The translations under genes were made by a program, and so were the position numbers. Below are positions 9,280 to 62,832 of a stretch of 64,000 bases of DNA, piece after piece. The stretch spans positions 62,001 to 126,000 of the forward strand of contig JAJFKP010000056.1 in the NCBI GenBank assembly GCA_021773135.1. Reading direction: 5' to 3'. Within the stretch, counting starts at the first letter, position 1. Each line of letters starts with the position of its first letter. This DNA comes from Woeseiaceae bacterium (GTDB lineage: Bacteria; Pseudomonadota; Gammaproteobacteria; Steroidobacterales; Woeseiaceae). The notes under the pieces are model-generated. The model had not been told where the DNA came from. It made no database searches and was given only the letters and a program-made list of their open reading frames with translations.

Positions 9280-9286
9280 TGACGAA

Positions 9287-9399
9287 CTCATCGAGACCGG
9301 CTGAGGGAAAGGCCCAAAGAAGCCGGGGCAACCTGCAGAACTAACCATTCTGGCAAGGTGCCAACTCCTGCGGAGTGCATGTCACTTCCGATAGATGAG
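9287..9399 (+). promoter_or_regulatory. SAM-I (S-box) riboswitch
   Basis: All core S-box blocks occur in order: P1 CTCATC (9287-9292) pairing GATGAG (9394-9399), then GAGGGA, GGCCC, GAAGCC, GGCAACC, the AAGGTGCCAA segment and a small ACTCC/GGAGT helix. S-box RNAs bind S-adenosylmethionine and lower expression of methionine genes, matching metB downstream. The 135 bases between the aptamer and the metB start hold no terminator with a T-run. A GCGAC/GTCGC hairpin (about 9491-9505) lies upstream of the ribosome-binding site, so translational control is more likely. Confidence 0.9.
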
Positions 9400-9534
9400 T
9401 GTCGTTTTTGAAGTTGAATCAGCAACGGTGATTTGATGCAGGTAACGACACCCACCCAGGCGGTTTTCGCGGGGATCTGATGAGCTGCAAGCGACTTTAC
9501 GTCGCGTTATTGGATCGATAGCGGAGACCAGCAA

Positions 9535-10731
9535 ATGACTTCTTCAGTTAATTCAGCCACTTCAGCCGTACGTGCTGCCCTTGAGACCGATGCACAACAT
9601 GGCGCCGTCGTGCCGCCTTTGCACCTGTCTTCCAACTACACATTCAGGGAATTCGGTGAGAAACGCGAGTACGACTATACGCGCAGCGGCAACCCGACCC
9701 GTACGGCATTGGCCGAGGCTCTGTGCCAGCTGGAAGGCGGTGTCGGGGCGGCAGTGACATCCTCCGGCATGGCGGCCCTGAACCTGGTACTGCAGCTGCT
9801 GCAGCCAGGCGATCTGCTGGTTGCACCGCATGATTGCTATGGCGGGACCTATCGCCTGTTTGAATGTCTCGCGGCAAAAGGTCATTTTCGCGTAGCGTTC
9901 GTCGATCAAACTGACGCACCGGCTGTGCGTGCAGCGTGTGCGGCTGGGCCCAAACTGATTCTTGTTGAAACGCCATCCAACCCGCTGTTGCGCATCGTTG
10001 ATATCAAAAAAATGTCCATAGCAGCGAAGGGCTGCGGTGCGTTGCTTGCAGTCGATAATACGTTCCTGTCACCTGCACTACAGCAACCGATAAAGCTGGG
10101 AGCAGATGTCGTCATTCACTCAACGACAAAGTATCTGAATGGGCACAGCGACGTTGTTGGCGGTGCCGTGATCGCAGCAAGCAGGGAACTGGCAGAAAAG
10201 CTTGATTGGTGGGCAAACTGCCTGGGCATTACAGGTGCACCGTTCGATGCCTATCAGACCTTGAGGGGCGTCCGGACGCTGCATGCACGCATGGAACAGC
10301 ACGAGAAAAATGCCGGCATTCTGGCAACGTTGCTTGATGAACACGATGCGGTGGAGACAGTTTACTATCCCGGACTGTGCAATCACCCAGGCCATGAAAT
10401 TGCACTGCAGCAACAGTCCGGATTTGGCGGCATGTTGAGTTTCGAGATCGCGGGAGGCGAGGGCGCGGTTAAGGCCTTCGTCGAGTCGTTGCGGTTATTT
10501 TCCCTTGCCGAATCTCTTGGCGGGGTCGAAAGCCTCGTCTGTCATCCGCCGTCGATGACGCACGCACCTGTCGACGAGCTGGCGTTGACGCAGGCTGGCA
10601 TTCATCAAAATCTGATTCGGCTGTCGGTGGGCATTGAATGTAGCGAAGACCTGGTCCTCGATGTGCTGCAGGCACTGAATGCTGCGCAACGAGCGGCGGA
10701 CTTTCCGGCGCTCACTGCAGTCGTTGAATAA
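9535..10731 (+). CDS. metB: Cystathionine gamma-synthase / O-succinylhomoserine (thiol)-lyase
   Basis: Condenses an O-acylated homoserine with cysteine to cystathionine in methionine synthesis (cytoplasm). The 398-residue protein is a Cys/Met-metabolism PLP enzyme. Visible are YDYTRSGNPT (phosphate contact from the partner chain), SSGMAA, AVDNTF and the PLP lysine K199 in HSTTKYLNGHSD, plus SLGGVESL in the C-terminal domain. It is preceded by GGAG eight bases before ATG and by the SAM-I riboswitch, which points to synthesis rather than degradation. MetZ-type sulfhydrylase or cystathionine gamma-lyase activity cannot be excluded by eye. Its 3' end overlaps the convergent leuB by 20 bp. Confidence 0.9.
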   Translation: MTSSVNSATSAVRAALETDAQHGAVVPPLHLSSNYTFREFGEKREYDYTRSGNPTRTALAEALCQLEGGVGAAVTSSGMAALNLVLQLLQPGDLLVAPHDCYGGTYRLFECLAAKGHFRVAFVDQTDAPAVRAACAAGPKLILVETPSNPLLRIVDIKKMSIAAKGCGALLAVDNTFLSPALQQPIKLGADVVIHSTTKYLNGHSDVVGGAVIAASRELAEKLDWWANCLGITGAPFDAYQTLRGVRTLHARMEQHEKNAGILATLLDEHDAVETVYYPGLCNHPGHEIALQQQSGFGGMLSFEIAGGEGAVKAFVESLRLFSLAESLGGVESLVCHPPSMTHAPVDELALTQAGIHQNLIRLSVGIECSEDLVLDVLQALNAAQRAADFPALTAVVE

Positions 10732-11773
10732 TCGCCTGGGTCATTTCCTCGGTCGTTACGTAGTGCCCGGAATCACCTGCTATATCGGCCGTACGTACGC
10801 CGGCGGCGATGGTTGCGTGAATTGCGGCCTCGATTTTCGCAGCTTCTTCGTCGAGGTTCAGGCTATGTCGCAGCAGCATCGCCGCACTCGCAATTGTGCC
10901 GCAGGGGTTGGCTAAACCTTTACCTGCGATGTCGGGTGCAGAACCATGTATGGGTTCGTACAAGCCGCGAGTTGACTCGCCCAGTGATGCCGATGGAAGC
11001 ATGCCCAGCGAACCGGCCAGCATTGATGCTTCGTCAGTCAGTATGTCGCCGAACATGTTTTCGGTGACAATGACGTCGAAACTCGAAGGACGATTAATCA
11101 GGTGCATTGCGGCGGCGTCCACAAGCATGTGTTCACTGTCGAGATCGGGAAATTCTGCGGCGAGAGTCGTTGTTGTAACGTCGCGCCACAAGCGTGAGGT
11201 CTCCAATACATTCGCCTTATCCACAGAGCACAATATACCCCTGCGCTGTTGCGCCAGGGTCGCCGCCACGCGAATTATTCTCTCAACTTCGTAGCGATGA
11301 TAGGTGCAGAGGTCGGTGGCTGAATCCTGGTCGCGCGTCTTTTCGCCAAAATAGATGCCTCCAGTTAATTCTCGCACCACCATAATGTCGACGCCCTTTA
11401 GTCGGTCCGTCTTGATCGGAGATGCTTCGGCCAGCTCGTCCATCGTGTTCACGGGTCGCAGGTTGGCGAATACCTGTAGCTCGGCGCGCAGGGCCAGGAT
11501 GCCCTGTTCGGGGCGAATACTCGCGTTCGGGTCGGACCATTTCGGTCCGCCAACTGCGCCAAGCAAAATGGCATCACTTTCTTTGCAGCTTGCTCGCGTA
11601 TTGGCCGGGCAGGGATCGTTTTCCGCATCGATTCCGGCACCGCCAATTAATTGCTCTGAAAATTCAAACTTGTGGCCGTACAGCTGCGCAATTTGTTCGA
11701 GCACGCTCACGCCGGCGCTGGCTACTTCCGGACCGATGCCGTCGCCAGGAAGAACAGTTATCAGGGCGTCCAA
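10712..11773 (-). CDS. leuB: 3-isopropylmalate dehydrogenase
   Basis: Oxidatively decarboxylates 3-isopropylmalate to 2-oxoisocaproate with NAD+. The 353-residue protein matches LeuB throughout: PGDGIGPEV at the N-terminus, GAVGGPKW, RELTGGIYFGE, the VDAAAMHLI region, TENMFGDILTDEA (metal and substrate aspartates) and EPIHGSAPDIAGKGLANP near the NAD site. The start is TTG at 11773, supported by a GAGGAG ribosome-binding site about eight bases upstream. The gene overlaps leuD by 13 bp, indicating coupled translation. Last gene of the ilvC-leuA-ilvE-leuCDB operon, and convergent with metB. Confidence 0.96.
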   Translation of the reverse strand: MDALITVLPGDGIGPEVASAGVSVLEQIAQLYGHKFEFSEQLIGGAGIDAENDPCPANTRASCKESDAILLGAVGGPKWSDPNASIRPEQGILALRAELQVFANLRPVNTMDELAEASPIKTDRLKGVDIMVVRELTGGIYFGEKTRDQDSATDLCTYHRYEVERIIRVAATLAQQRRGILCSVDKANVLETSRLWRDVTTTTLAAEFPDLDSEHMLVDAAAMHLINRPSSFDVIVTENMFGDILTDEASMLAGSLGMLPSASLGESTRGLYEPIHGSAPDIAGKGLANPCGTIASAAMLLRHSLNLDEEAAKIEAAIHATIAAGVRTADIAGDSGHYVTTEEMTQAIIQRLQ

Positions 11774-12345
11774 GATCGGGTCTCCTCAAATTCCTTGATT
11801 GCGGTTTCGTGTTTTAGCAGGAATCCGAGTTGGTCGATTCCCTCCAATAAGCAGTACCTTGCGAAGCTGTCGATCGGGAAAGACACTGATCCACCATCAG
11901 GCAGAATTACGACCGACTGTGCTACATCGATCGTGAGCTCACAACCCGGATGATCAAGCAGCCAGGTGTGTGTGTTTTCGTCGACAACGATCGGTAGAAA
12001 TCCGTTCTTCAGTGAGTTGCTGCGGAAAATATCTGCAATTTCAGTGCTGATGACGGCCCGCAATCCGTAGTCCAGTAGCGCCCATGGGGCATGTTCACGA
12101 GACGAACCACAGCCGAAGTTTCTGCCCGCTACCAGAATTTGACAGTCTTTCGCAGCCTGTTTGTTCAGCGCAAAAGTATTGATCTCTTCGCCATCTGCAT
12201 CAAAACGCCAGTCGTAAAAGAGGTTCGCGCCCAGTCCCTGGCGGGTGGTCGTGGTCAGAAAGCGCGCCGGAATAATCTGATCTGTATCGACGTCCGTCGC
12301 CGGCAAAACAACGGTTTTGGACTTCAGGTGCGTGATCGGCTGCAT
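11761..12345 (-). CDS. leuD: 3-isopropylmalate dehydratase small subunit
   Basis: Small subunit of isopropylmalate isomerase, which works with LeuC to convert 2- to 3-isopropylmalate. The 194-residue sequence carries the swivel-domain hallmarks: VLPATDVDTDQIIPARFL near the N-terminus and GRNFGCGSSREHAPWAL in the middle. ATG 12345 is chosen because it starts 10 nt after the leuC stop with an AGGT ribosome site. A frame-open start at 12393 would run back into leuC. Confidence 0.96.
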   Translation of the reverse strand: MQPITHLKSKTVVLPATDVDTDQIIPARFLTTTTRQGLGANLFYDWRFDADGEEINTFALNKQAAKDCQILVAGRNFGCGSSREHAPWALLDYGLRAVISTEIADIFRSNSLKNGFLPIVVDENTHTWLLDHPGCELTIDVAQSVVILPDGGSVSFPIDSFARYCLLEGIDQLGFLLKHETAIKEFEETRSWTP

Positions 12346-12355
12346 GCGGTCTGAC

Positions 12356-13765
12356 CTACAGGTATTGGCGCGGGTCTGCGACGCGACCCGCAATTGCGGA
12401 TGCCGCAGCAGTCATGGGGCTCGCGAGAATGGTGCGCGCACCAATTCCCTGGCGACCCTCAAAATTCCGGTTGCTTGTGCTCACGCTCAGCTGTCCTCGT
12501 GGCACCGTGTCACCGTTCATGCCAAGGCACATGGAGCAACCTGACTCCCGCCATTCTGCGCCCGCAGCGATGAAGATTTTGTCCAGGCCAAGTGACTCCG
12601 CCTCCTTTTTAACCTGCTGTGACCCAGGCACCACGAGCATGCGAACGCCATCAGCAACCTTGCGATCACGCACGATATTGGCGGCTTCCTGCAGATCGCT
12701 AATACGGGAGTTAGTACAACTGCCGATGAATACGACATCGACTGCCGCGTGACTTAAGGGCTTGCCTGCTGCGACCTGCATGTAATCCAACGCCTTTTCG
12801 AAACTGGCATTGCCGTTTGCCGGTGGAACATTTTCGTTAACCGGAATAACCATTCCGGGATTCGTGCCAAAAGTTGCCATGGGCTGCAGTCTGCTGCCGT
12901 CAATCGTGACCGTCTTTTCGAACTTCGCACCCGGATCGCCGCGCAAGGCAAGCCAGCGTTTTATTGCAACCTCCCAGTCTGCTCCCTGAGGCGCCTTTGG
13001 TCGGCCCTCAAGGTAGTCGAAAGTAGTTTGGTCGGGTGCGATCATGCCTGCCCGGGCGCCTGCTTCAATGGACATGTTGCAAACGGTCATGCGCTCGTCC
13101 ATTGACATCGATTCGATTGCGGAACCACGATACTCAATGACATGACCAGTGCCACCGTCGACCCCAATTTCGCCAATAATTGACAGGATGACATCCTTTG
13201 CCGTGACTCCGGCTTGCAGTTTCCCGGTGACCTCTATAGCGAGGGTTTTCGGTTTTCGCTGCAGCAGACACTGGGTCCCAAGTACGTGCCCGACTTCCGT
13301 AGTGCCGATGCCGAATGCGAGCGCACCGAATGCGCCGTGGGTGCTGGTATGACTATCACCGCAAACGATAGTCTTGCCGGGCTGCGTGGCGCCCATCTCC
13401 GGCCCCATGACGTGCACGATGCCGCGATATTTCGAATCGAAACCGTGTAGTTCGAGTCCGAATTCTTTGCAGTTTTCCTGCATTTTGGCGACCTGCATGG
13501 CGGCCCCCTCGCCAACGATCGCCAAATCCTTGAACGAGCGCACGGGTGTGGTCGGCGTCGAGTGATCCATCGTGCCCAACGTTAAGTCTGGGCGACGAAC
13601 TGACAGGCCCTGCTCGCGTAGGAGGGCGAACGCCTGTGGCGTCGTAACTTCATGAATCAAGTGCAGGTCGATAAAAAGAATTGCGGGCGTGTCGGGCGTC
13701 TCTTCTTTGACGACGTGATCCTGCCAGACTTTTTCGAATAGAGTTTTTGGGGCTAATTCGCTCAC
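12356..13765 (-). CDS. leuC: 3-isopropylmalate dehydratase large subunit
   Basis: Fe-S aconitase-family large subunit of isopropylmalate isomerase. Visible are [32 protein letters not shown], and the 4Fe-4S cysteines in IGSCTNSR and [11 protein letters not shown]. The likely start is GTG 13765 ([13 protein letters not shown]), giving 469 residues, the normal LeuC length, ten bases after the ilvE stop. Longer open frames to 13816 or 13873 add residues that only read through ilvE in another frame. A GGAG lies 15 bases upstream of the GTG, longer than ideal, so the start is less certain than the identity. Confidence 0.95.
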
Positions 13766-13775
13766 GCTGTTCTGA

Positions 13776-14735
13776 TCAAGCTCCGCCTGCAGCGACGGCC
13801 GATGGCGTTGCGACATATTCCAGCCAGCCGTCACGATCTTCCGTTTGGCCGTTGAACAGGCCAAAGAACGCATCCTGCAATTGTTTCGTTATCGGTCCAC
13901 GCTGACCCGCGCCAATTTCAATACGATCGACCGAGCGAATGGGCGTAACCTCCGCTGCGGTACCTGTAAAGAACAATTCGTCAGCCAGGTACAGCGCTTC
14001 ACGCGGTATCGACTTTTCTTCAACGGTGATGCCAATACGGCCCGCCAGCTTGATCACAGTGTCGCGGGTCAGTCCGGTCAGTATTGAAGATGTCGCCGGT
14101 GGAGTAAGGATGCGGCCATCGCGAATCATAAACAGGTTCTCGCCGGCGCCCTCGCTAACCGTGCCGTCTGTAGAAAGGGCGATGCCCTCATGAAATCCGA
14201 GGCGTTTTGCTTCGGTGCTGATCAGCTGGCCGGACAGGTAGTTGCCGCCCGCCTTGGCCAGTGCAGGAATTGTATTCGGCGCGACCCTTTGCCAGCTTGA
14301 AACGCAAACATCAACACCGTTTTCCAGTCCTTCCGCACCGAGATAGGCACCCCATTCCCAGGCGGCAATGGCAACGTCAACGCGGTGGTCGGGCTTTGGT
14401 GCGAGCCCGGGTTCACCGTAACCGCGAAAGGCAAGGGGACGAATGTATGCGCCATTGACCAGATCATTCGCACGTACGACCTCCTTACAGACTTCCACGA
14501 GTTCATCACGTTCATAGGCCAGCGGCATGCGGTAAATTTTTGCCGAGTCATAAAACCGCTGCATATGATCAGTCAGGCGAAATATGGCGCATCCGTCGGG
14601 GGTCTTGTAGCCCCGAATTCCTTCAAATACGGAGGAGCCGTAGTGCAGGGCGTGCGCCATTATGTGAACAGTTGCCTGTTCCCAGGGAATCATCTGACCG
14701 TTGTGCCAGATCAGTTTTCCACCGCTAAAACTCAT
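13776..14735 (-). CDS. ilvE: Branched-chain amino-acid aminotransferase
   Basis: Fold-IV PLP aminotransferase of 319 residues that makes valine, leucine and isoleucine from their keto acids with glutamate. The sequence closely follows E. coli-type Ilv[29 protein letters not shown] (with the PLP lysine), [18 protein letters not shown], and [16 protein letters not shown]. The ATG has a GGAG about nine bases upstream. It sits between leuA and leuC, so the final transamination enzyme is co-regulated with the leucine pathway by the upstream attenuator. Confidence 0.96.
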
Positions 14736-14817: not shown

Positions 14818-16386
14818 CTAAATTGTTGCCCGGTTGACGTCTGTCGTTGCCTTGATTTCCTCCAGCCCCAGCTCTCTTCTGCGCAAAATGCGATTGATGA
14901 CTTCCAGGTAGGCACGACAGGTCGCCTCGATAATGTCCTGACTTGCCCCGTGACCGCGGAAGGGCTGCCCATTGAATTCTACGACGACGGTCGCCTCGCC
15001 CTGGGCGTCCTCGCCAACCGTTGCGCTATGCAGCTCAAAATTCTTGAGTGTCAAATCGATGCCGCTGGCATCTTCCAGCGCTGTAAATGCAGCCTCTACG
15101 GGCCCGTCACCGACAGCCTCTTTCCTGATCTGTGCGCCATTTTCGTCAAGTAGTTCGAGCGTCGCCGTGGCGTCGATGCCTGTCCCAGATGTAATTTGCA
15201 GCGATTTCAGTGTCCATGGGCCCGTAGACGAATTGTCAACGTTCATAATGATCGCTTCAATGTCGCCGTCGTACATGTCCTTCTTTTTGTCCGCCAGTTT
15301 CTTGAATTCCTGAAAAGCCCGGTTCACTTCAAAATCATCGAGGTCAAATCCCAGGTCTCGGACGCGATCGCGAAATGCATGCCGGCCGCTGTGCTTGCCC
15401 AATACCAGGTTCGACTTGCTAATGCCGATTTCTTCCGGCCTCATAATTTCGTATGTCGAGGCATGTTGGAGCATGCCGTGCTGGTGAATGCCGGCCTCAT
15501 GTGCAAACGCATTCTCGCCGACTATCGCCTTGTTGCGCGGTATTTGCATGCCAGTGATGCCGGACACAAGCCTTGCGGTTGGGTAAAGACGGGTTGAATC
15601 GATGCCAGTATCCAGAGAGTAGAATTCGCTGCGGGTTTTAAGTGCCATGACGACTTCTTCCAGCGAACAATTTCCAGCTCTTTCGCCGATGCCATTGATC
15701 GTGCACTCAACCTGGCGCGCGCCTGCACCGACTGCAGCCAGGCTGTTCGCCACTGCCATGCCCAGGTCGTCGTGGCAATGCACACTAAGTGTAATATTCT
15801 CAATGCCGGTGACATGTTCGTGCAGATAACGGAATAGCTTGTCGAATTCCGCAGGCACCGTGTACCCGACTGTGTCAGGAATATTTACGGTCGTCGCACC
15901 TGCCTCAATTGCAGCGCTAACAACTTCAGCAAGATAGCTGAGCTCAGTTCTGGAGGCGTCCTCCGGAGAGAACTCCACATCATCACAAAGCTCGCGCGCC
16001 ATGGTTATCGCACCGACCGCACTTTTGATGATTTCCTCTTTTGCCATCTTGAGCTTGTACTCGCGATGTATGGCGCTGGTAGCGACAAAAACATGAATGC
16101 GATGTTTGTCGGCACTCTTGACTGCCTCGTGTACTTTTGCAATATCTTCAGGATTACATCGAGCAAGGCCGCAAATAACCGGGCCACGATTTTCATCGGC
16201 AATGGCTTTGACTGCGTCGAAGTCGCCCGGTGACGCAGCCGGAAATCCCGCTTCGATAATGTCAACATTCAGATCGGCGAGCGCTTTGGCGATTCTGAGC
16301 TTTTCCCTGAGCGTCATGCTGCAGCCGGGCGCCTGTTCTCCATCTCTCAATGTCGTGTCAAAAATCTTGATGCGATTCGTCGCCAT
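14818..16386 (-). CDS. leuA: 2-isopropylmalate synthase
   Basis: First committed enzyme of leucine synthesis, condensing acetyl-CoA with 2-oxoisovalerate. The 522 residues match the standard LeuA: an N-terminal TIM barrel ([46 protein letters not shown]) and a C-terminal regulatory domain (about 390-510) that normally binds leucine for feedback inhibition. The ATG follows a GGAGCAGGA ribosome site. It lies 82 bp downstream of ilvC, and an 82-bp gap separates it from ilvE. Confidence 0.97.
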
Positions 16387-16468: not shown

Positions 16469-17455
16469 CTAGTTCTCCAACCAATCCATCTTGCTGCGCA
16501 GCCTGGCACCCACTTCCTCTATGGGGTGCTCCAGATCTGCATTCATTAACCGTTTGTACTCGGGTTGTCCGGCTTTGTTTTCCTCAATCCATCTCTTGGC
16601 AAACGTGCCATCCCGGATATCGTCAAGTACTTCCTGCATCTTCGCCCGCACATGCTCATCCACAACCCGCGGGCCGCTGATAAGGTCGCCCCAGGCAGCA
16701 GTCTCGCTTATGAATTCGTGCATTTTGCGGATGCCACCCTCGTGCAGCAGATCGACAATCAGCTTGAGTTCGTGCATTACCTCGTAGTAGGCGACCTCCG
16801 GCTGGTAGCCTGCTTTGACCAGGGTGTCGAAGCCTGCGACCACGAGCTCGGTCGCGCCGCCACAAAGCACCGCCTGCTCGCCAAACAGATCGGTTTCAGT
16901 CTCCTCGGCGAAAGTCGTTTCGATCACACCGGCGCGCGCACCGCCAATACCCTGCGCATAGGCCAGGGCAAGCTTGATCGCATTGCCGGTCGCATCCTGT
17001 GCGACGGCAACCAGGCAGGGCACGCCGTGGCCTTCCTCGTATTGCCGACGTACCAGGTCTCCGGGGCCCTTCGGTGCGATGAGCACAACATCGAGGTCGT
17101 CACGGGGAGAGATCTGCTTGAAATGAATATTGAAACCATGGGCGAAGAGCAGGGTGGTGCCCTGCTCGATATTGTTCACCACGGACTCGTACAATGCTGA
17201 TTGCGAGGTATCCGGTGTCAAAATGGCAACAATAGACGCGCCTTTGACCGCTTCAGCGGGTTCCTTGACCACGAATCCGTCCGCCTCTGCCTTGCTGAAA
17301 CTGCCGCCCCCGGCGCGTGCGCCGATGACAACATCGTGACCACTGTCCTTTAAATTCAATGCATGGGCACGGCCCTGACTGCCGAATCCCAGGATGGTGA
17401 TCTGTTTGCCTTCGAGGCACGAAGTATCTACGTCAGATTCTGAATACATTTGCAT
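16469..17455 (-). CDS. ilvC: Ketol-acid reductoisomerase
   Basis: Class I KARI (328 residues) that isomerises and reduces acetolactate or acetohydroxybutyrate with NAD(P)H and Mg2+. Visible are the Rossmann motif [42 protein letters not shown], and the metal site [22 protein letters not shown]. In the cofactor loop [10 protein letters not shown] the arginine and last serine typical of NADPH enzymes are kept, but one serine is glycine, so cofactor preference is not obvious. GGGAA precedes the ATG by about seven bases. It is the first structural gene after the attenuator. Confidence 0.96.
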
Positions 17456-17503: not shown

Positions 17504-17538
17504 AAAAAAAACCCCACTATCCTGATCGGGATGCGGGG
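17504..17538 (-). terminator. Attenuator terminator of the ilvC-leu operon
   Basis: On the minus strand CCCCGCATCC (17538-17529) pairs with GGAT-A-GTGGGG (17522-17512): ten pairs with one G-U and one bulged A, and a six-base loop. Eight U residues (17511-17504) follow. It ends about 48 bases before the ilvC start, so it must be overcome for expression of the operon. Confidence 0.85.
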
Positions 17539-17577
17539 CCGGTGTTGCTGAGATTCAATAAGCGAACGTTACCGGCC
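17537..17577 (-). promoter_or_regulatory. Antiterminator of the ilvC attenuator
   Basis: GGCCGGT (17577-17571) is perfectly complementary to ACCGGCC (17543-17537). Its 3' arm uses the first two C residues of the terminator stem, so the two structures exclude each other. The 5' arm overlaps the last codons and stop of the leader peptide, so a ribosome that finishes the peptide masks it and lets the terminator form. Confidence 0.75.
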
Positions 17578-17670
17578 GTTTCTCCCGCTAAGGAGCACCA
17601 GCACTAACTGCTGGATAAGCAGTTTGCACAGGGTGTATGCCCGTATAACGATTTCCGTAACTAAACTCAT
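17569..17670 (-). CDS. Branched-chain amino-acid leader peptide
   Basis: Short frame of 33 codons from ATG 17670 to TAA 17571-17569. Fifteen residues are Leu, Val or Ile, dense at residues 17-27 (LLIQQLVLVLL). Such a composition just before mutually exclusive hairpins is the hallmark of ilv/leu transcription attenuation: stalling at Leu/Val/Ile codons frees the antiterminator, while completion covers it. There is no Shine-Dalgarno. The promoter at 17679-17707 predicts a transcript start about two bases before the ATG, so translation may be leaderless. An overlapping frame from ATG 17683 is not enriched in these residues and starts within the -10 box. Confidence 0.8.
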   Translation of the reverse strand: MSLVTEIVIRAYTLCKLLIQQLVLVLLSGRNGR

Positions 17671-17678
17671 AATCGCGG

Positions 17679-17707
17679 ATCATGTTGCAAGGGGTAGTGG
17701 ATGTCAA
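17679..17707 (-). promoter_or_regulatory. Promoter of the ilvC-leu operon leader
   Basis: Perfect -35 TTGACA (17707-17702), a 17-bp spacer and a -10 CATGAT (17684-17679, four of six matches). Predicted start about 17672, two bases upstream of the leader-peptide ATG. Confidence 0.65.
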
Positions 17708-18403
17708 CTGTCGAAAATTCAGTTACTTGTGTTACGAGTCAGGTTTGTTCTCGGCGTTGCTATCGCGGCTCATCGAGCAACGTAGCGAACGGCCCGAGAG
17801 CGTCATCCCCGGATTCGAGTTGACGTTAAGGAGTTGCCATAACATATTGAAGCGACTCTTTATAAGCCGAACTGTATCACGCGGACTTTGTGTCGAGCGC
17901 CTTATTGCCAGCCAGGCAACAGCACTTACAGAGCAGCACGTGATGCCGGCGCCAGGGTTCGAACAAAGCTTCATTCGCTGTGACGCTGGAGGCCAAACCG
18001 AATGCAGCTTGCGTGGCTCGCGCCCGTCTGCGATTCGTTGCGAAAACGAATAATCCGAATATCGCACTGCCCCGAAACTGCGGATGGGATTAGAAAGCGC
18101 ACATATCGTCAGGAAATTTCCGACATTACGTAATGTTGCTACAAGGCTGGCGATCTATCATGCTTATGGTATTCTTGTGCCCGACAAGGCGGGACCTATT
18201 AATCAAGGCCGGTTGCACAGGGGGTGTACAACCAGTCGGGTGGTCCAAAAAATTAAAGAGAAGACATTACAATTAGAAATAATCGCCGCGGCGTTAGTGG
18301 AGAGGGTCGCGAGCGCAAGGGGGATTGCATGCCACTGGATGTGGTCCGTCTGTTTGTTGTGCACGTTGTCTCATGATTACTGCGCATCCCTCTCCCAAAA
18401 TCC
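17708..18403. other. About 700 bp without a recognisable gene
   Basis: Lies between the ilvC leader and the TonB energiser operon. Open frames of 111-123 codons exist on both strands (17682-18053 plus, 17732-18067 minus, 18084-18428 plus). They overlap one another or the leader, lack good ribosome sites and resemble no family I know. A GGTTG/CAACC hairpin sits near 18209-18233 without a T-run. It may hold a small RNA or a decayed gene. Confidence 0.5.
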
Positions 18404-18437: not shown

Positions 18438-19232
18438 ATGAAACGGTGCAAATACAGCAGCCGGCAAATGACAAGCGCAGCGATTGGAGCCATTGTTATT
18501 GCCGCTGGCAGCGTCTTCGCCCAGACCTCGTCAGTCGATCAGGTTCTTCAGGCAGATTTAAGACGACTTGAGCTTGCGCAGGAGTCTCAGGAAAGAATCA
18601 ACGCGGTAGTGGAAGGTACCCGTTCTCTTGCCGACGACTATCGCTCGATCAACAAAGAAATCGACGGTTTGAAGGTCTATAACCGCTTAATGACGGCGCA
18701 AACCAATGGTCAGCAGGCGACGCTCGACGATATCGCGCTGTCAATGGAACAGGTCGACGTGATAAATCGGCAGATTTTTCCGCTGATGGAGCGAATGATC
18801 GACGGTATTGAGCAGTCGATTTCGCTTGATATTCCATTCCTGATGGACGAGCGCGATAATCGTATTAGTGACCTTAAGGACATTATGGAGCGGTCGGACG
18901 TCAGCGTTGCTGAAAAATTCCGCAAAGTGATGGAGGCCTATCAGATCGAGAGCGATTACGGTACTTCCAGTGAGTGGTATAAGGAAGAATTGAACGTTGA
19001 TGGTGCCGTGCGCGAATACAACATGTTCCGTGTCGGACGTATCGGTCTGTATTTTCAGTCGGATGACGCCTCCATCACCGGTTGGTGGAACCCGGAGTCC
19101 GGGCAATACGAAATGTTGGGCAGTGAGCATCGGAATGAAGTCCGCAAGGGCATTCGAATTGCACGCCAGTTAATTGCACCGGAACTGGTATTGCTGCCAT
19201 TTCCAGCGGCTAAACCTGTCGGGGGGGCTTGA
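18438..19232 (+). CDS. DUF3450 periplasmic coiled-coil protein of a TonB system
   Basis: A 264-residue protein with a Sec signal peptide (about 1-29, ending VFAQT). A long helical coiled-coil segment (about 35-120) follows, and then a compact C-terminal domain containing the WYKEELNVDG and GLYFQSDD...TGWWN motifs of the DUF3450 family. DUF3450 genes commonly open operons encoding TtpC-type TonB complexes, as here, and the product is presumed to be a periplasmic partner of the long ExbB-like protein that follows three bases later. Biochemical role undefined. AAGGAG precedes the ATG by five bases. Confidence 0.85.
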   Translation: MKRCKYSSRQMTSAAIGAIVIAAGSVFAQTSSVDQVLQADLRRLELAQESQERINAVVEGTRSLADDYRSINKEIDGLKVYNRLMTAQTNGQQATLDDIALSMEQVDVINRQIFPLMERMIDGIEQSISLDIPFLMDERDNRISDLKDIMERSDVSVAEKFRKVMEAYQIESDYGTSSEWYKEELNVDGAVREYNMFRVGRIGLYFQSDDASITGWWNPESGQYEMLGSEHRNEVRKGIRIARQLIAPELVLLPFPAAKPVGGA

Positions 19233-19235
19233 TCG

Positions 19236-20591
19236 ATGAAACGTATAGCAATAGCAGTCGCAAGCTTATTTCTGGCAACGGGTATGGCACACGCTCAGAC
19301 CGATGCCAGCTCAATGTCGGAACTCCTGAATCAAATCCAGCAGGGCCAGGCGCGGGACAGCGCTGAAGCCCGCGAGCGTGAGGCGAGATTTGCGCAATCA
19401 CGCAGCGAACAGCAGAATCTCGTCAATCAGGCACGTGCCGAACGGACAAGACAGGAACGTGAAAGTGAGCGTCTCGAAGCGCTCTTCAATACGAACCAGG
19501 AGCAAATCGTAACGGCTCGTGCAGCCCTCGATGAGCGCCTGGGCGCCCTGAAAGAGCTGTTCGGTGTTCTGCAGACGGTCGCTGGCGATGCACAGGGTCG
19601 TTTCAACACATCATTGACCAACATCCAGTTTCCGGATCGCGAAGACTTCCTCGTGGAGCTGGGGTCAAAGATGTCCAGTGCGAGTTCTTTGGCTTCCATC
19701 GAAGAAATAGAGCGCCTCTGGTTCGAGCTACAACGTGAGATCAGCGAGACGGGCAAGATCGTGCGCTTCCCGCAACAGGTCACGAGGGCGAATGGCGAAG
19801 TGGTTAACACGGACATCGTTCGCGTTGGCGCTTTCAATATCGTTTTCGAAGATGGTTATCTGCGCTATGGCGAGACAGGTTCGGTCACTGAGCTACAGCG
19901 CCAGCCGGAGCAGGCTCGTTACACCAACTCGACAGCAGATATCATGGCGGCGACGACAGGGCCGGTGACATTCGGTCTCGACGGCACACGCGGCGGCATT
20001 CTCGACCTGCTGGTCGAATCACCAACGATTACCGATCGCATCAATCAGGGTGGCATCGTCGGCTATAACATTATCGGACTGGGCATCATCGGACTGTTGA
20101 TAGCACTGGTTCGCTGGATCGGGCTATCTTCGGCATCGCGCAAAGTGAAGGCGCAGCTGAAGAGCGATACTGCAAGCACCGATAACCCGTTGGGCCGTGT
20201 ACTCGCAGCGTATGAATCCAATTCCGGCGCTGATACGGAAACGGTTGAGCTGAAGTTGAGCGAAGCTGCGCTGAAAGAGATGCCGGGCCTCACAAAGGGC
20301 CTGCTGTTCATCAAGGTTATCTCCGTCGTAGCACCGCTGATGGGGCTGCTCGGAACGGTGACCGGTATGATCAAGACCTTCCAGGTGATCACGCTTTTCG
20401 GTGCAGGCGATCCGAAGATGATGGCCGGTGGTATTTCACAGGCGCTGATGACGACCGTATTGGGACTGGTTGTGGCCATTCCCATGGTTTTGATTCATAC
20501 CCTGGTTAGTGGTCAGAGCAGGAAGATCATCAACATTCTTCAGTCACAAAGTGCAGGCATCGTTGCCACGCATTCTGAAAAGCACGGCTAG
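19236..20591 (+). CDS. TtpC-like MotA/TolQ/ExbB proton-channel protein with periplasmic coiled coil
   Basis: A 451-residue protein with a Sec signal peptide (about 1-21, MAHAQ) and a periplasmic coiled coil rich in Glu, Arg and Gln (about 35-110). A beta-rich periplasmic domain (about 125-240) precedes three membrane helices in the MotA/TolQ/ExbB module (about 270-440). The last third contains the family core: VVAPLMGLLGTVTGMIKTFQVI and GGISQALMTTVLGLVVAIP. This architecture matches TtpC, the extra subunit of the Vibrio TonB2 system. It probably connects proton flow to the TonB complex or to an envelope receptor. Followed by ExbB, ExbD, TonB and a TPR protein in one operon. Confidence 0.88.
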   Translation: MKRIAIAVASLFLATGMAHAQTDASSMSELLNQIQQGQARDSAEAREREARFAQSRSEQQNLVNQARAERTRQERESERLEALFNTNQEQIVTARAALDERLGALKELFGVLQTVAGDAQGRFNTSLTNIQFPDREDFLVELGSKMSSASSLASIEEIERLWFELQREISETGKIVRFPQQVTRANGEVVNTDIVRVGAFNIVFEDGYLRYGETGSVTELQRQPEQARYTNSTADIMAATTGPVTFGLDGTRGGILDLLVESPTITDRINQGGIVGYNIIGLGIIGLLIALVRWIGLSSASRKVKAQLKSDTASTDNPLGRVLAAYESNSGADTETVELKLSEAALKEMPGLTKGLLFIKVISVVAPLMGLLGTVTGMIKTFQVITLFGAGDPKMMAGGISQALMTTVLGLVVAIPMVLIHTLVSGQSRKIINILQSQSAGIVATHSEKHG

Positions 20592-60303: not shown

Positions 60304-62832
60304 ATGAACGACAATCTTAAACTCTGCCTCGGGTTGGTGGTCGCCAGCTCAATAGGCATTCCGGTGCTCGCGGCGCAGGCCCAAGAGGACTTCATCTACG
60401 AAGAAATCACGGTTACTGCAACAAAGCGCGAGCAGACGTTGCAGGAAATACCGGTTGCCGTATCGGTTACCAATGCGGAAACCATGGAGAAAGCACAAAT
60501 TCTGGACGTTCTGGATCTACAGACGGTCGTGCCCTCATTGCGTGTGACCCAGCTGCAAACCTCAGGCAATACCAATTTCCTGATTCGCGGCTTCGGTAAT
60601 GGCGCCAACAATCCCGGCATTGAGCCGTCGGTCGGCGTCTTTATCGATGGCGTCTATCGTTCTCGTTCGGCCGCCGCTTTGAGTGACCTGCCCAACCTGG
60701 AACGCGTCGAAGTATTGCGTGGACCACAGAGCACGCTGTTTGGTAAGAACGCATCCGCTGGCGTCATCAGTGTAATCACCGCGTTGCCACGGCAGGAATT
60801 AGGCGGTTCGGCTAAATTGACCGTCGGCAATTACGGCCAGACTATTGTTAAGGGGGAGATCTCCGGGCCGCTGTCGGATACCGCCGGTTTCGGACTGTCG
60901 GTGAACAGTAACCAGCGAGATGGCTATTTCGACAACCTGGAAGATGGTTCGACATTTAACGAACGCGATCGTTGGGGTGTGCGCGGTCAGTTTTCGATGA
61001 TTCCGACCGACAGTTTGTCGCTCAGAGTGATCGCAGACTATGATGAAATTGACGAGCTCTGTTGCGGTGTTGGCAACTTGATTAACGGGCCGACAGGTGC
61101 GGTCGTTGTTGGCGTTGGTGGCAATCTCGTGCCGGAAAACGTGTTTTCCGATTCCGGGTACCTGAACCTCAACCCCAGGAATGAAGTCGAAAACAGCGGC
61201 ATTTCGCTGCAAGCCGATTTCGATCTGGCCAATTCACTCATTACGTCTATTACAGCCGTCCGCAATGTTAGTCGTGTCGAGGATGCCGACGTTGATTTTA
61301 CGAGTGCCGATATAGTCGGCAGTAATTTCAGTGATACTGACATCGATACGTTCACGCAGGAATTGCGGTGGTCGTCGACAGGTGGAGAGAATCTCGACTG
61401 GATGATTGGCGCATTCTTTTTCAGCGAAGATGTTAGTTACGACACGTCACTAAACTACGGTTCGGATGCGCGCCTGTATGCCGACCTGCTTGCCGGCCAG
61501 ATCTCGGGTACAGGGTTGCCCGGCTCGCTCGCGACACTGGAGGCTGCCCTGGGTGGACTTCCTCCCGTATTTTTCGCCGATGGCACAGGCGTAGTCGAGA
61601 ATGCGGGTCAGGACAACACCGCGTTGTCCATTTTTGGGCAAATCGACTGGTTCCTGAACGACCGCACGACGGTGACCTTGGGGCTAAATTATACGCAGGA
61701 TGAAAAAGACGCATTTGTACGTCAACCGGTGAATACGGACGCTTTCGCTGCGGTTGATTTTGTCCAGGTAGGCTTCGGGCAAATATTCAGTACTTTAACC
61801 GGCGGCCAGCCACCGACACCGGCAAACTTCGCTATGTTCCCGGCGCAATTTGGTCAGGCGCAGGCGCTCAGCACGGTGCCTTGCTCCGCGACGACCGGGC
61901 CCGCCTGTAATCCTCTATTGTCCTTCCAGTCCGTGCAGGTGCTTTTGCCTTTTGTTGATTATCCGAATGCCGTCGAGAACGGCAATTCCGACGACAGTGA
62001 AGTGACCTGGACGGCGCGCATCGCATTTGACGTCAGTGACGACGTTAATATTTACGCGAGTGCGGCGACGGGTTTCAAAGCAACGTCTTGGAATTTGTCG
62101 CGAGACTCACGCCCGTTTCCGATGGACATCGCGGCGATCGAGTCGGGCGGTCTCAGCGTCCCGAACCTCGTTTCGGGAACACGCTTCGCCGGGCCGGAGG
62201 AGTCTACTGTTTACGAAATTGGCCTGAAAGCTCGTTTCGCGAAAGGGGCAGTTAACCTCGCTATCTTCGATCAGACTATTGAAGGCTTTCAGTCAAATAT
62301 TTTTACGGGGCTTGGCTTCAATCTGGCCAACGCCGGCGAACAGTCTGCGACCGGCTTCGAGTTTGACGGCACTTTTTATCCTACTGAGAATTGGCAGATG
62401 ACACTTGCCGGTACCTGGATGGACCCGGTCTTCGATTCGTTCGTTGGCGCTTCCGGAGTAACCGGACCGGTGGACCTGTCAGGAACACAACCACCGGGAA
62501 TTCATGAATTAAGCGTAGCCGCTTCCGCAACTTATTCGAATTATTTCTCCAACGGAATGGAAGGCTTTATTCGCGCCGACTATCTCTACGAAGACGACAT
62601 TCGAACGAATGAAAATGTGCCTGCCTCGGCGGGAAGACGTGAAGTGAGTGTGCTCAATGCGAGTTTCGGTATCTCGACTGAGAGTGGCTGGGACGTAATT
62701 GTTTGGGGTCGTAATCTGACTGATGACCGGTATTTGCTCAGTTCAGCGCCGGTACCATTTCAGGAGGGAAGTTTCCTTGGCTATGGCAATCAGCCATTAA
62801 CTTACGGCGTTACGGTTGGCAAGGAATTCTAG
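60304..62832 (+). CDS. TonB-dependent outer-membrane receptor
   Basis: An 842-residue receptor. The Sec signal peptide ends near residue 24 (VLAAQAQ), a TonB-box-like EEITVTATKRE follows, then a plug domain (LQEIPVAVSV to LPRQELGG, with LIRGFGNGANN and VEVLRGPQSTLFGKNASAGVI) and a 22-strand barrel ending in the aromatic KEF terminus. This style is common in marine gammaproteobacteria and transports large or hydrophobic substrates; the ligand is unknown. ATG 60304 has GGGGGA upstream. A strong terminator follows. It may use the TonB operon at 18-24 kb. Confidence 0.93.
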   Translation: MNDNLKLCLGLVVASSIGIPVLAAQAQEDFIYEEITVTATKREQTLQEIPVAVSVTNAETMEKAQILDVLDLQTVVPSLRVTQLQTSGNTNFLIRGFGNGANNPGIEPSVGVFIDGVYRSRSAAALSDLPNLERVEVLRGPQSTLFGKNASAGVISVITALPRQELGGSAKLTVGNYGQTIVKGEISGPLSDTAGFGLSVNSNQRDGYFDNLEDGSTFNERDRWGVRGQFSMIPTDSLSLRVIADYDEIDELCCGVGNLINGPTGAVVVGVGGNLVPENVFSDSGYLNLNPRNEVENSGISLQADFDLANSLITSITAVRNVSRVEDADVDFTSADIVGSNFSDTDIDTFTQELRWSSTGGENLDWMIGAFFFSEDVSYDTSLNYGSDARLYADLLAGQISGTGLPGSLATLEAALGGLPPVFFADGTGVVENAGQDNTALSIFGQIDWFLNDRTTVTLGLNYTQDEKDAFVRQPVNTDAFAAVDFVQVGFGQIFSTLTGGQPPTPANFAMFPAQFGQAQALSTVPCSATTGPACNPLLSFQSVQVLLPFVDYPNAVENGNSDDSEVTWTARIAFDVSDDVNIYASAATGFKATSWNLSRDSRPFPMDIAAIESGGLSVPNLVSGTRFAGPEESTVYEIGLKARFAKGAVNLAIFDQTIEGFQSNIFTGLGFNLANAGEQSATGFEFDGTFYPTENWQMTLAGTWMDPVFDSFVGASGVTGPVDLSGTQPPGIHELSVAASATYSNYFSNGMEGFIRADYLYEDDIRTNENVPASAGRREVSVLNASFGISTESGWDVIVWGRNLTDDRYLLSSAPVPFQEGSFLGYGNQPLTYGVTVGKEF

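Follow-up and report, generated by a model that had tools for sequence, protein, structure and literature searches.

Textbook attenuation in Gammaproteobacteria relies on a leader peptide whose frame is preceded by a 5′ untranslated region (UTR). The region upstream of ilvC in the Woeseiaceae genome studied here raises the question of whether an attenuator in this class could work with a leader peptide translated from an RNA that begins at, or almost at, its start codon. An initial annotation of the 64,000-nucleotide window (the whole stretch of DNA analyzed here) had described a branched-chain attenuator at this position and suggested that its leader was probably leaderless. Our comparison of related loci indicates that the region is very probably a leucine-responsive, and to some extent valine-responsive, ribosome-mediated attenuator of the ilvC-leuA-ilvE-leuC-leuD-leuB operon, with a leader peptide whose message would be leaderless or nearly so.

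Architecture of the leader locus

The features of the locus lie on the minus strand. The −35 hexamer TTGACA (17702..17707), seen in the sequence and in a promoter scan, is separated by a spacer of 17 nucleotides from the −10 hexamer CATGAT (17679..17684), which matches the consensus at four of six positions. The leader peptide frame MSLVTEIVIRAYTLCKLLIQQLVLVLLSGRNGR (17569..17670) opens with an ATG at 17670, 8 nt past the −10 hexamer with the bases CCGCGATT intervening, and closes with a TAA at 17571-17569. Leu, Val and Ile account for 15 of its 33 codons, exactly as had been described for a minus-strand frame just behind a TTGACA promoter, and a block of control codons, TTA GTG CTG GTG CTC CTT (Leu-Val-Leu-Val-Leu-Leu), occupies 17590..17607.

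Downstream of the frame, an intrinsic terminator hairpin, CCCCGCATCC/GGATaGTGGGG (17512..17538), is predicted by folding. Its stem is followed by eight T, U in the RNA (17504..17511, read from 17511 to 17504), and the hairpin with eight U residues that had been reported before ilvC is therefore present. The antiterminator has a 5′ arm, GGCCGGT (17571..17577), that covers the two final sense codons and extends to the first base, T, of the stop codon, confirming the reported overlap with the end of the leader, and a 3′ arm, ACCGGCC (17537..17543), whose positions 17538-17537 are common with the terminator. Promoter, frame, hairpins and U run were all found where the initial annotation had placed them.

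The operon that the attenuator was said to precede is likewise supported, its gene identities resting on NCBIfam models. The first structural gene, ilvC (16469..17455; NF004017, TIGR00465), is followed on the same strand by leuA (14818..16386; TIGR00973), ilvE (13776..14735; TIGR01122), leuC (12356..13750; TIGR00170), leuD (11761..12393; TIGR00171) and leuB (10712..11773; TIGR00169). The start of leuC is approximate, because its frame is listed from 13873 and TIGR00170 matches from residue 42 on. The best named match of IlvC is a Woeseiaceae MAG (L032) with 92% identity, near-identical records having possibly been left out. Among the neighboring genes, a cystathionine gamma-synthase-like gene (9535-10731) overlaps the 3′ end of leuB with its own 3′ end and is preceded by a SAM riboswitch (RF00162, 83.2 bits; window 9285-9401, plus strand). 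At window 18438-20591 (plus strand), open frames diverge from the ilvC promoter; they include a 451-aa product whose C-terminal part resembles TolQ/ExbB.

Taken alone, the promoter match is not above chance, with two matches found in an 801-base region against 1.0 (s.d. 0.9) in shuffles. A strict pattern of TTGACN, a 17-nt spacer, the −10 hexamer, 6 to 8 nt and ATG occurs twice on the two strands of the window, at the leader and at 62363 on the plus strand. The locus stands above chance by its conservation: 51 of the 53 distinct loci that have a leader frame, the present one among them, share its promoter spacing, its start distance, its Leu-rich frame and its terminator. The leader stretch is present as a single copy in its own genome. 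No Rfam family matched it at the gathering score, the only match up to an E-value of 5 being to an unrelated family (E 3.6).

Sample of related loci

Up to 600 bases upstream of ilvC were taken from relatives and from 40 further stretches. The family of the genome under study (f1) comprises 61 genomes; five were without a match and four partial matches were left out, leaving 52 loci, of which four (L018, L021, L022 and L023) have too little upstream sequence. Among 13 named loci, four duplicates were dropped (L032, L033, L037 and L042), and L085, L088 and L100, for which the script gave no match extending to the start of ilvC, were left out. Family and near named relatives together provided 54 distinct loci with enough upstream sequence, 53 of them with a leader frame. 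At L148, the leader is absent upstream of ilvC.

Promoters were picked by score, with spacers of 16-18 allowed and 17 favored, and the start was taken as the first in-frame start codon downstream. Two loci that failed the script’s Leu filter (L016 and L045) were added by hand. L121, which failed the same filter, was read separately; the alignments and energy counts, with their 52 rows, do not include it. At L012, the script chose a GTG 2 nt after the −10 hexamer, and the in-frame ATG at 8 nt was used instead.

Distance from promoter to start codon

The start codon lies close behind the promoter in nearly all relatives. Among the 53 distinct loci with a leader frame, it follows the −10 hexamer by 6 nt in 7, by 7 nt in 6, by 8 nt in 32, by 10 nt in 5 and by 12 nt in 1, so that 45 fall at 6-8 nt and 51 at 6-12 nt. 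The exceptions are L131, with an ATG 28 nt after the −10 hexamer, an AGGA motif and an in-frame ATT at 7 nt, and L121, where the Leu-rich frame begins 24 nt after the −10 hexamer and is preceded by a four-codon frame. The hexamers themselves vary little: in the 50 loci tabulated, the −35 is TTGACA in 45 and TTGACT in 5, the −10 reads CATNAT in 44, and the spacer is 17 in every case under a score that allowed 16-18 and favored 17.

Sigma-70 transcription starts about 7 nt after the −10 hexamer. This predicts transcripts with 0-6 nt ahead of the start codon at 51 of the 53 loci, and for the genome under study an RNA that starts 0-3 nt ahead of the ATG at 17670. A pyrimidine precedes the start codon in 46 of 52 loci; the A of the ATG would therefore often be the first reachable purine, which suits initiation at that base. 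The start codon is ATG in 51 of 52 loci and GTG in the remaining one, and a passage of a review of leaderless translation describes AUG as the preferred start of leaderless mRNA in E. coli (PMC9031893).

Shine-Dalgarno pairing

Sites were counted as Shine-Dalgarno-like when their pairing energy with the 16S tail was −4.5 kcal/mol or lower. None of the 52 leaders reached this value (shuffles, 9/260), against 36 of 52 ilvC starts (shuffles, 95/260), in agreement with the initial annotation, which had seen no Shine-Dalgarno sequence before the leader ATG. By a motif list, 1 of 52 leaders (L131, with its 28-nt distance) and 40 of 52 ilvC starts carry such a site; the energy measure was added because this list misses the site of E. 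coli trpL. With the signal absent from the leaders and mostly present at ilvC, the leader lacks a canonical signal wherever its RNA starts.

A missing Shine-Dalgarno site is by itself no proof of leaderless initiation, since the anti-Shine-Dalgarno energy of E. coli ilvL is also weak (−0.9 kcal/mol, compared with −5.6 for leuL and −4.5 for trpL). Combined with the start distance of 6-12 nt in 51 of 53 loci, the lack of a Shine-Dalgarno-like site in 52 of 52 nevertheless places the leaderless suggestion, which depends on predicted start sites, on much firmer ground than when it was first made.

Coding evidence and control codons

The leader behaves as a translated frame. It is open in all 52 loci counted, and leucine is kept while its synonymous codons vary. 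Across 143 non-independent pairs differing by at most 45%, differences at codon positions 1, 2 and 3 number 534, 385 and 759, respectively. Counted back from the stop, codons −7, −8 and −9 specify Leu, Val or Ile in 94%, 88% and 94% of 50 loci, and codon −7 is Leu in 47 of these. The initial annotation had proposed control by all three amino acids; leucine stands as the main one, with some valine, whereas isoleucine is prominent solely at codon −6 (11 of 50 loci). Of 140 leucine codons at −6 to −9 in the leaders of the 52 loci, 103 are CTT or CTC, against 350 of 971 in ilvC (32 of these loci), where CTG is the commonest. The preference could stem from a particular leucyl-tRNA or from RNA pairing.

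These codon patterns bear on the proposal that the region is a plain terminator, or another type of RNA switch, in which the small frame goes untranslated. Conservation of the terminator alone would yield a folding signal, and such a signal is present: the 183-nt stretch 17672-17490 folds better than 200 of 200 shuffles (z −2.64). Rfam provides no match at the gathering score by which a named class could decide the matter. However, an untranslated frame fits poorly with a reading frame that stays open in 52 loci, retains leucine through synonymous variation and changes most often at third positions, and both the position of the frame and its codons are those that attenuation requires. We therefore regard this proposal as very improbable and retain the leader peptide attenuator as the preferred interpretation. 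A comparison of the leader among relatives had been suggested in the initial annotation; frame, codons and hairpins are all kept there.

Terminator and antiterminator

A simple consensus scan listed no terminator, probably because the stem contains a one-base bulge. In alignment A1, whose rows were cut at a T run following the stem, such a run is present in every row. Over the 52 aligned loci, 96.2% of cells are paired in the terminator, with 6 cells changed on both sides. The antiterminator of the family consists of GCGGG/CCCGC plus GCG/CGC and takes five bases of the terminator 5′ arm; here 91.8% of cells are paired and 12 are changed on both sides. The number of cells changed on both sides is unusual (0/500 shuffles for each helix), whereas the count of pairs containing such cells is not (reached in 79/500 shuffles for the terminator and 181/500 for the antiterminator), shuffles of related rows being a soft control. 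RNAalifold did not find the antiterminator with all 52 rows, and found it on 45 of the 52 (seven divergent rows left out) when these were cut before the terminator 3′ arm. Slid controls lean towards the antiterminator because the helix was taken from this run on 45 cut rows.

Other hairpins are less evident. Pairing between the early leader and the antiterminator arm, which normally serves as a safeguard in the absence of translation, has a mean z of −0.50 (SE 0.17), with 18 of 52 related rows below −1, and is barely above shuffles. The mean z for local pause hairpins is +0.31, and a search across the 52 loci revealed neither a pause nor a protector hairpin that is conserved at the 5′ end.

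The genome under study departs from its family in the antiterminator. A C at 17574 disrupts the pairing register of the family; GGCCGGT/ACCGGCC pairs instead, a shifted register that shows matching changes on both arms relative to the nearest relatives. The resulting helix overlaps the terminator by two bases only, and the remaining eight terminator pairs can coexist with it in the fold. Its stretch has a folding energy of −15.7 kcal/mol, against −13.1 to −19.3 in 10 of the 11 relatives folded and −6.9 in L125. These models suggest that GGCCGGT/ACCGGCC is a real pairing that nonetheless looks derived, and that it should compete less strongly with the terminator than the helix of relatives does. 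Of the competing antiterminator described at the outset, the helix is upheld, whereas its overlap amounts to two bases and is a variant of this genome.

Such a variant could mean that the attenuator of this genome is weakened or being remodeled, with a terminator that is poorly blocked, a leader that mostly limits expression and little response to leucine. The two-base overlap, the 8-bp terminator core that coexists with the antiterminator in the fold and the broken family pairing at 17574 are all consistent with this possibility. It appears rather unlikely, since the antiterminator stretch folds no less stably than in most of the relatives folded, and since the new helix requires its two arms to have changed in step, suggesting selection for one that works. 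An attenuator that still functions remains our favored interpretation for this genome.

Leaders of the same layout elsewhere

A leader with a run of Trp codons precedes trpE in the same genus, including the present genome (G000:C24, near 158446), and was identified at L210 and 32 further loci. The trpE sample comprised 37 loci, 10 from the genus and 27 among the family’s best 30, with 58 of 61 genomes matched. The script found the trp leader in 33 of the 37, always starting with ATG and always 6-9 nt after the −10 hexamer; 3 of these 33 have an AGGA or AGGT motif upstream. The four missed by the script (L211, L232, L235 and L243) show by eye a TTGAC hexamer and a similarly spaced ATG; in the last three, TAAAAG occupies the −10 position. 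The trp leader therefore repeats the geometry of the ilvC leader with different hexamers.

The ilvC layout also occurs in two other families of the order. In f4, it is present at 4 of 4 loci, with starts at 7-8 nt, and in f13 at 9 of 10 usable loci, with starts at 5-8 nt; within f13, L169 is too short, and L165 was assigned another promoter by the script, the layout being visible by eye. The f13 loci (L160-L170) come from small-genome relatives of 1.1-1.6 Mb, which keep a Leu-rich leader of leaderless layout together with a terminator. Sister loci outside f1, f4 and f13 are mixed, with starts, counted from the best promoter found, at 21 (L142), 34 (L099), 41 (L146), 43 (L059), 49 (L060), 50 (L046), 82 (L068) and 102 nt (L055), and at 2-6 nt after a best promoter with a spacer of 19 in L043 and L047. 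The layout is thus lineage-wide without being universal, and we do not claim it for all Gammaproteobacteria.

Leaders for other amino acids were sought at further loci of the genus. Under thresholds that we set ourselves, no His-rich frame was found at nine hisG loci and no Phe-rich frame at nine pheS loci, and nine ilvB loci returned five weak hits confined to two of them.

Upstream element and promoter position

A conserved element, GTAWCACAAGTAACTGA (17719..17735, minus strand), lies at about −65 to −49 from the predicted start and is found in most rows of alignment A2 (52 loci). It is a possible activator or UP-type site. One exact copy exists in its own genome. A regulon defined by the pattern GTAWCACAAGTAACTG was considered and rejected: with up to two mismatches, the genome holds 4 sites, the present one included, against 5 for the reversed control pattern. 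At the next best site (L153), no branched-chain gene was recognized among the adjoining frames listed.

An element conserved upstream of the −35 hexamer is also what might be seen if the attenuator were of the ordinary kind, with its promoter lying further upstream, a normal 5′ UTR that has no canonical Shine-Dalgarno site, and with TTGACA...CATNAT serving as an operator or second promoter. The longer distances at L142, L099, L146 and L046, which are still without the Shine-Dalgarno motifs searched for, point the same way. This arrangement is nevertheless unlikely. The conserved block has both hexamers, 17 nt apart in all 50 loci tabulated, and the start codon sits at a nearly fixed distance from it, whereas nothing is conserved in the roughly 15 aligned columns above the element; the repetition of this geometry at the family’s trp leader, with other hexamers, argues against it as well. 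Transcription from the TTGACA promoter just before the leader is accordingly the arrangement that we adopt below.

Discussion

The logic of attenuation proposed for this locus is supported by conserved control codons, by coding-type substitution and by helices that are kept or compensated. From these parts and their conservation, the lack of a Shine-Dalgarno site and the alternative helices, we infer the start site, the translation of the leader, the stalling and the direction of the response. Transcription would begin 0-3 nt before the ATG at 17670, and a ribosome would load on the 5′-proximal AUG without Shine-Dalgarno pairing. When leucine is plentiful, this ribosome would reach the stop codon and cover the antiterminator 5′ arm, so that the terminator forms and the RNA ends in the U run. 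When leucyl-tRNA is short, it would stall in the Leu/Val block and leave the antiterminator 5′ arm free. The free arm could then pair with the sequence reaching into the terminator 5′ arm, allowing the operon to be read.

The recurrence of the layout has implications beyond a single operon. The whole family and parts of the order seem to have lost the 5′ UTR at two unrelated attenuators, with promoter-to-AUG spacing nearly fixed. We tentatively suggest, as a possibility of rather low probability, that leaderless initiation is ancestral and selected for the leucine and tryptophan attenuators of this gammaproteobacterial order, which would then couple the leading ribosome to RNA polymerase as soon as the transcript begins. 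Since a leaderless RNA engages 70S ribosomes directly, these attenuators would also read, besides tRNA charging, the state of the ribosome, meaning free 70S ribosomes, initiation factors and stress. Such loci may offer a simple natural system for studying leaderless initiation in the context of attenuation, including whether ribosome state adds a second input. The signature of a −10 hexamer, 6-8 nt and an AUG could also provide a sharp means of finding unannotated leader peptides in the lineage.

The leuL, ilvL and trpL leaders of E. coli have 5′ UTRs. They share with the present locus a short frame of control codons, a choice between antiterminator and terminator, and a biosynthetic operon downstream. 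They differ in promoter position: a similar script places their best promoter matches 75-110 nt from the ATG and none at 6-12 nt, a control that shows little beyond the absence of the pattern, since the script’s −10 rule misfits the E. coli trp promoter. A polycysteine leaderless leader peptide is reportedly known from mycobacteria.

Leaderless mRNAs are described, in part of a review, as rare in enterobacteria and as mostly loaded by 70S ribosomes (PMC9031893). The closest parallels come from other lineages. The leaders of Streptomyces lividans ilvL, leuL and trpL, before branched-chain, trp and tRNA ligase genes, are reported as leaderless in the portion of the article concerned with them (PMC8079986). 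This actinobacterial case is likened to ours by layout, its leu, ilv and trp leaders having 12-18 codons and some being without a typical terminator, according to the same portion (PMC8079986). The ilvBNC attenuator of Corynebacterium glutamicum is discussed as leaderless in sections of two articles, where a title by Morbach refers to leader peptide formation without a ribosome binding site (PMC11857589, PMC10272879). As presented in those sections, the C. glutamicum attenuator belongs to another lineage, precedes ilvB and has a frame of 15-17 codons (PMC11857589, PMC10272879).

Two other systems allow further comparison. In an excerpt on Sinorhizobium meliloti trpL (rnTrpL), a proteobacterial attenuator, the 5′ end of the RNA coincides with the leader ATG (PMC7298713); that system is alphaproteobacterial, concerns Trp, has a frame of 14 codons, and has a leader RNA and peptide that also act in trans, as the excerpt describes (PMC7298713). 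The Campylobacter jejuni LeuL is a Leu leader before leu genes, in a genome where, by an extract of the report, its Leu codons are rare (PMC3847290). The search described in that extract required an upstream ribosome binding site, and LeuL is hence, unlike the leader studied here, not leaderless (PMC3847290).

Among the matches listed from the open-access literature, neither a leaderless attenuator in Gammaproteobacteria nor the present leader was recognized. The leader itself may have been predicted earlier, as a 2004 comparative study of proteobacterial attenuators exists. Leaderless attenuator leaders had already been reported from Actinobacteria and for alphaproteobacterial trpL; what appears to be new, as judged from the matches listed, is the lineage-wide occurrence of probably leaderless leader peptides in Gammaproteobacteria.
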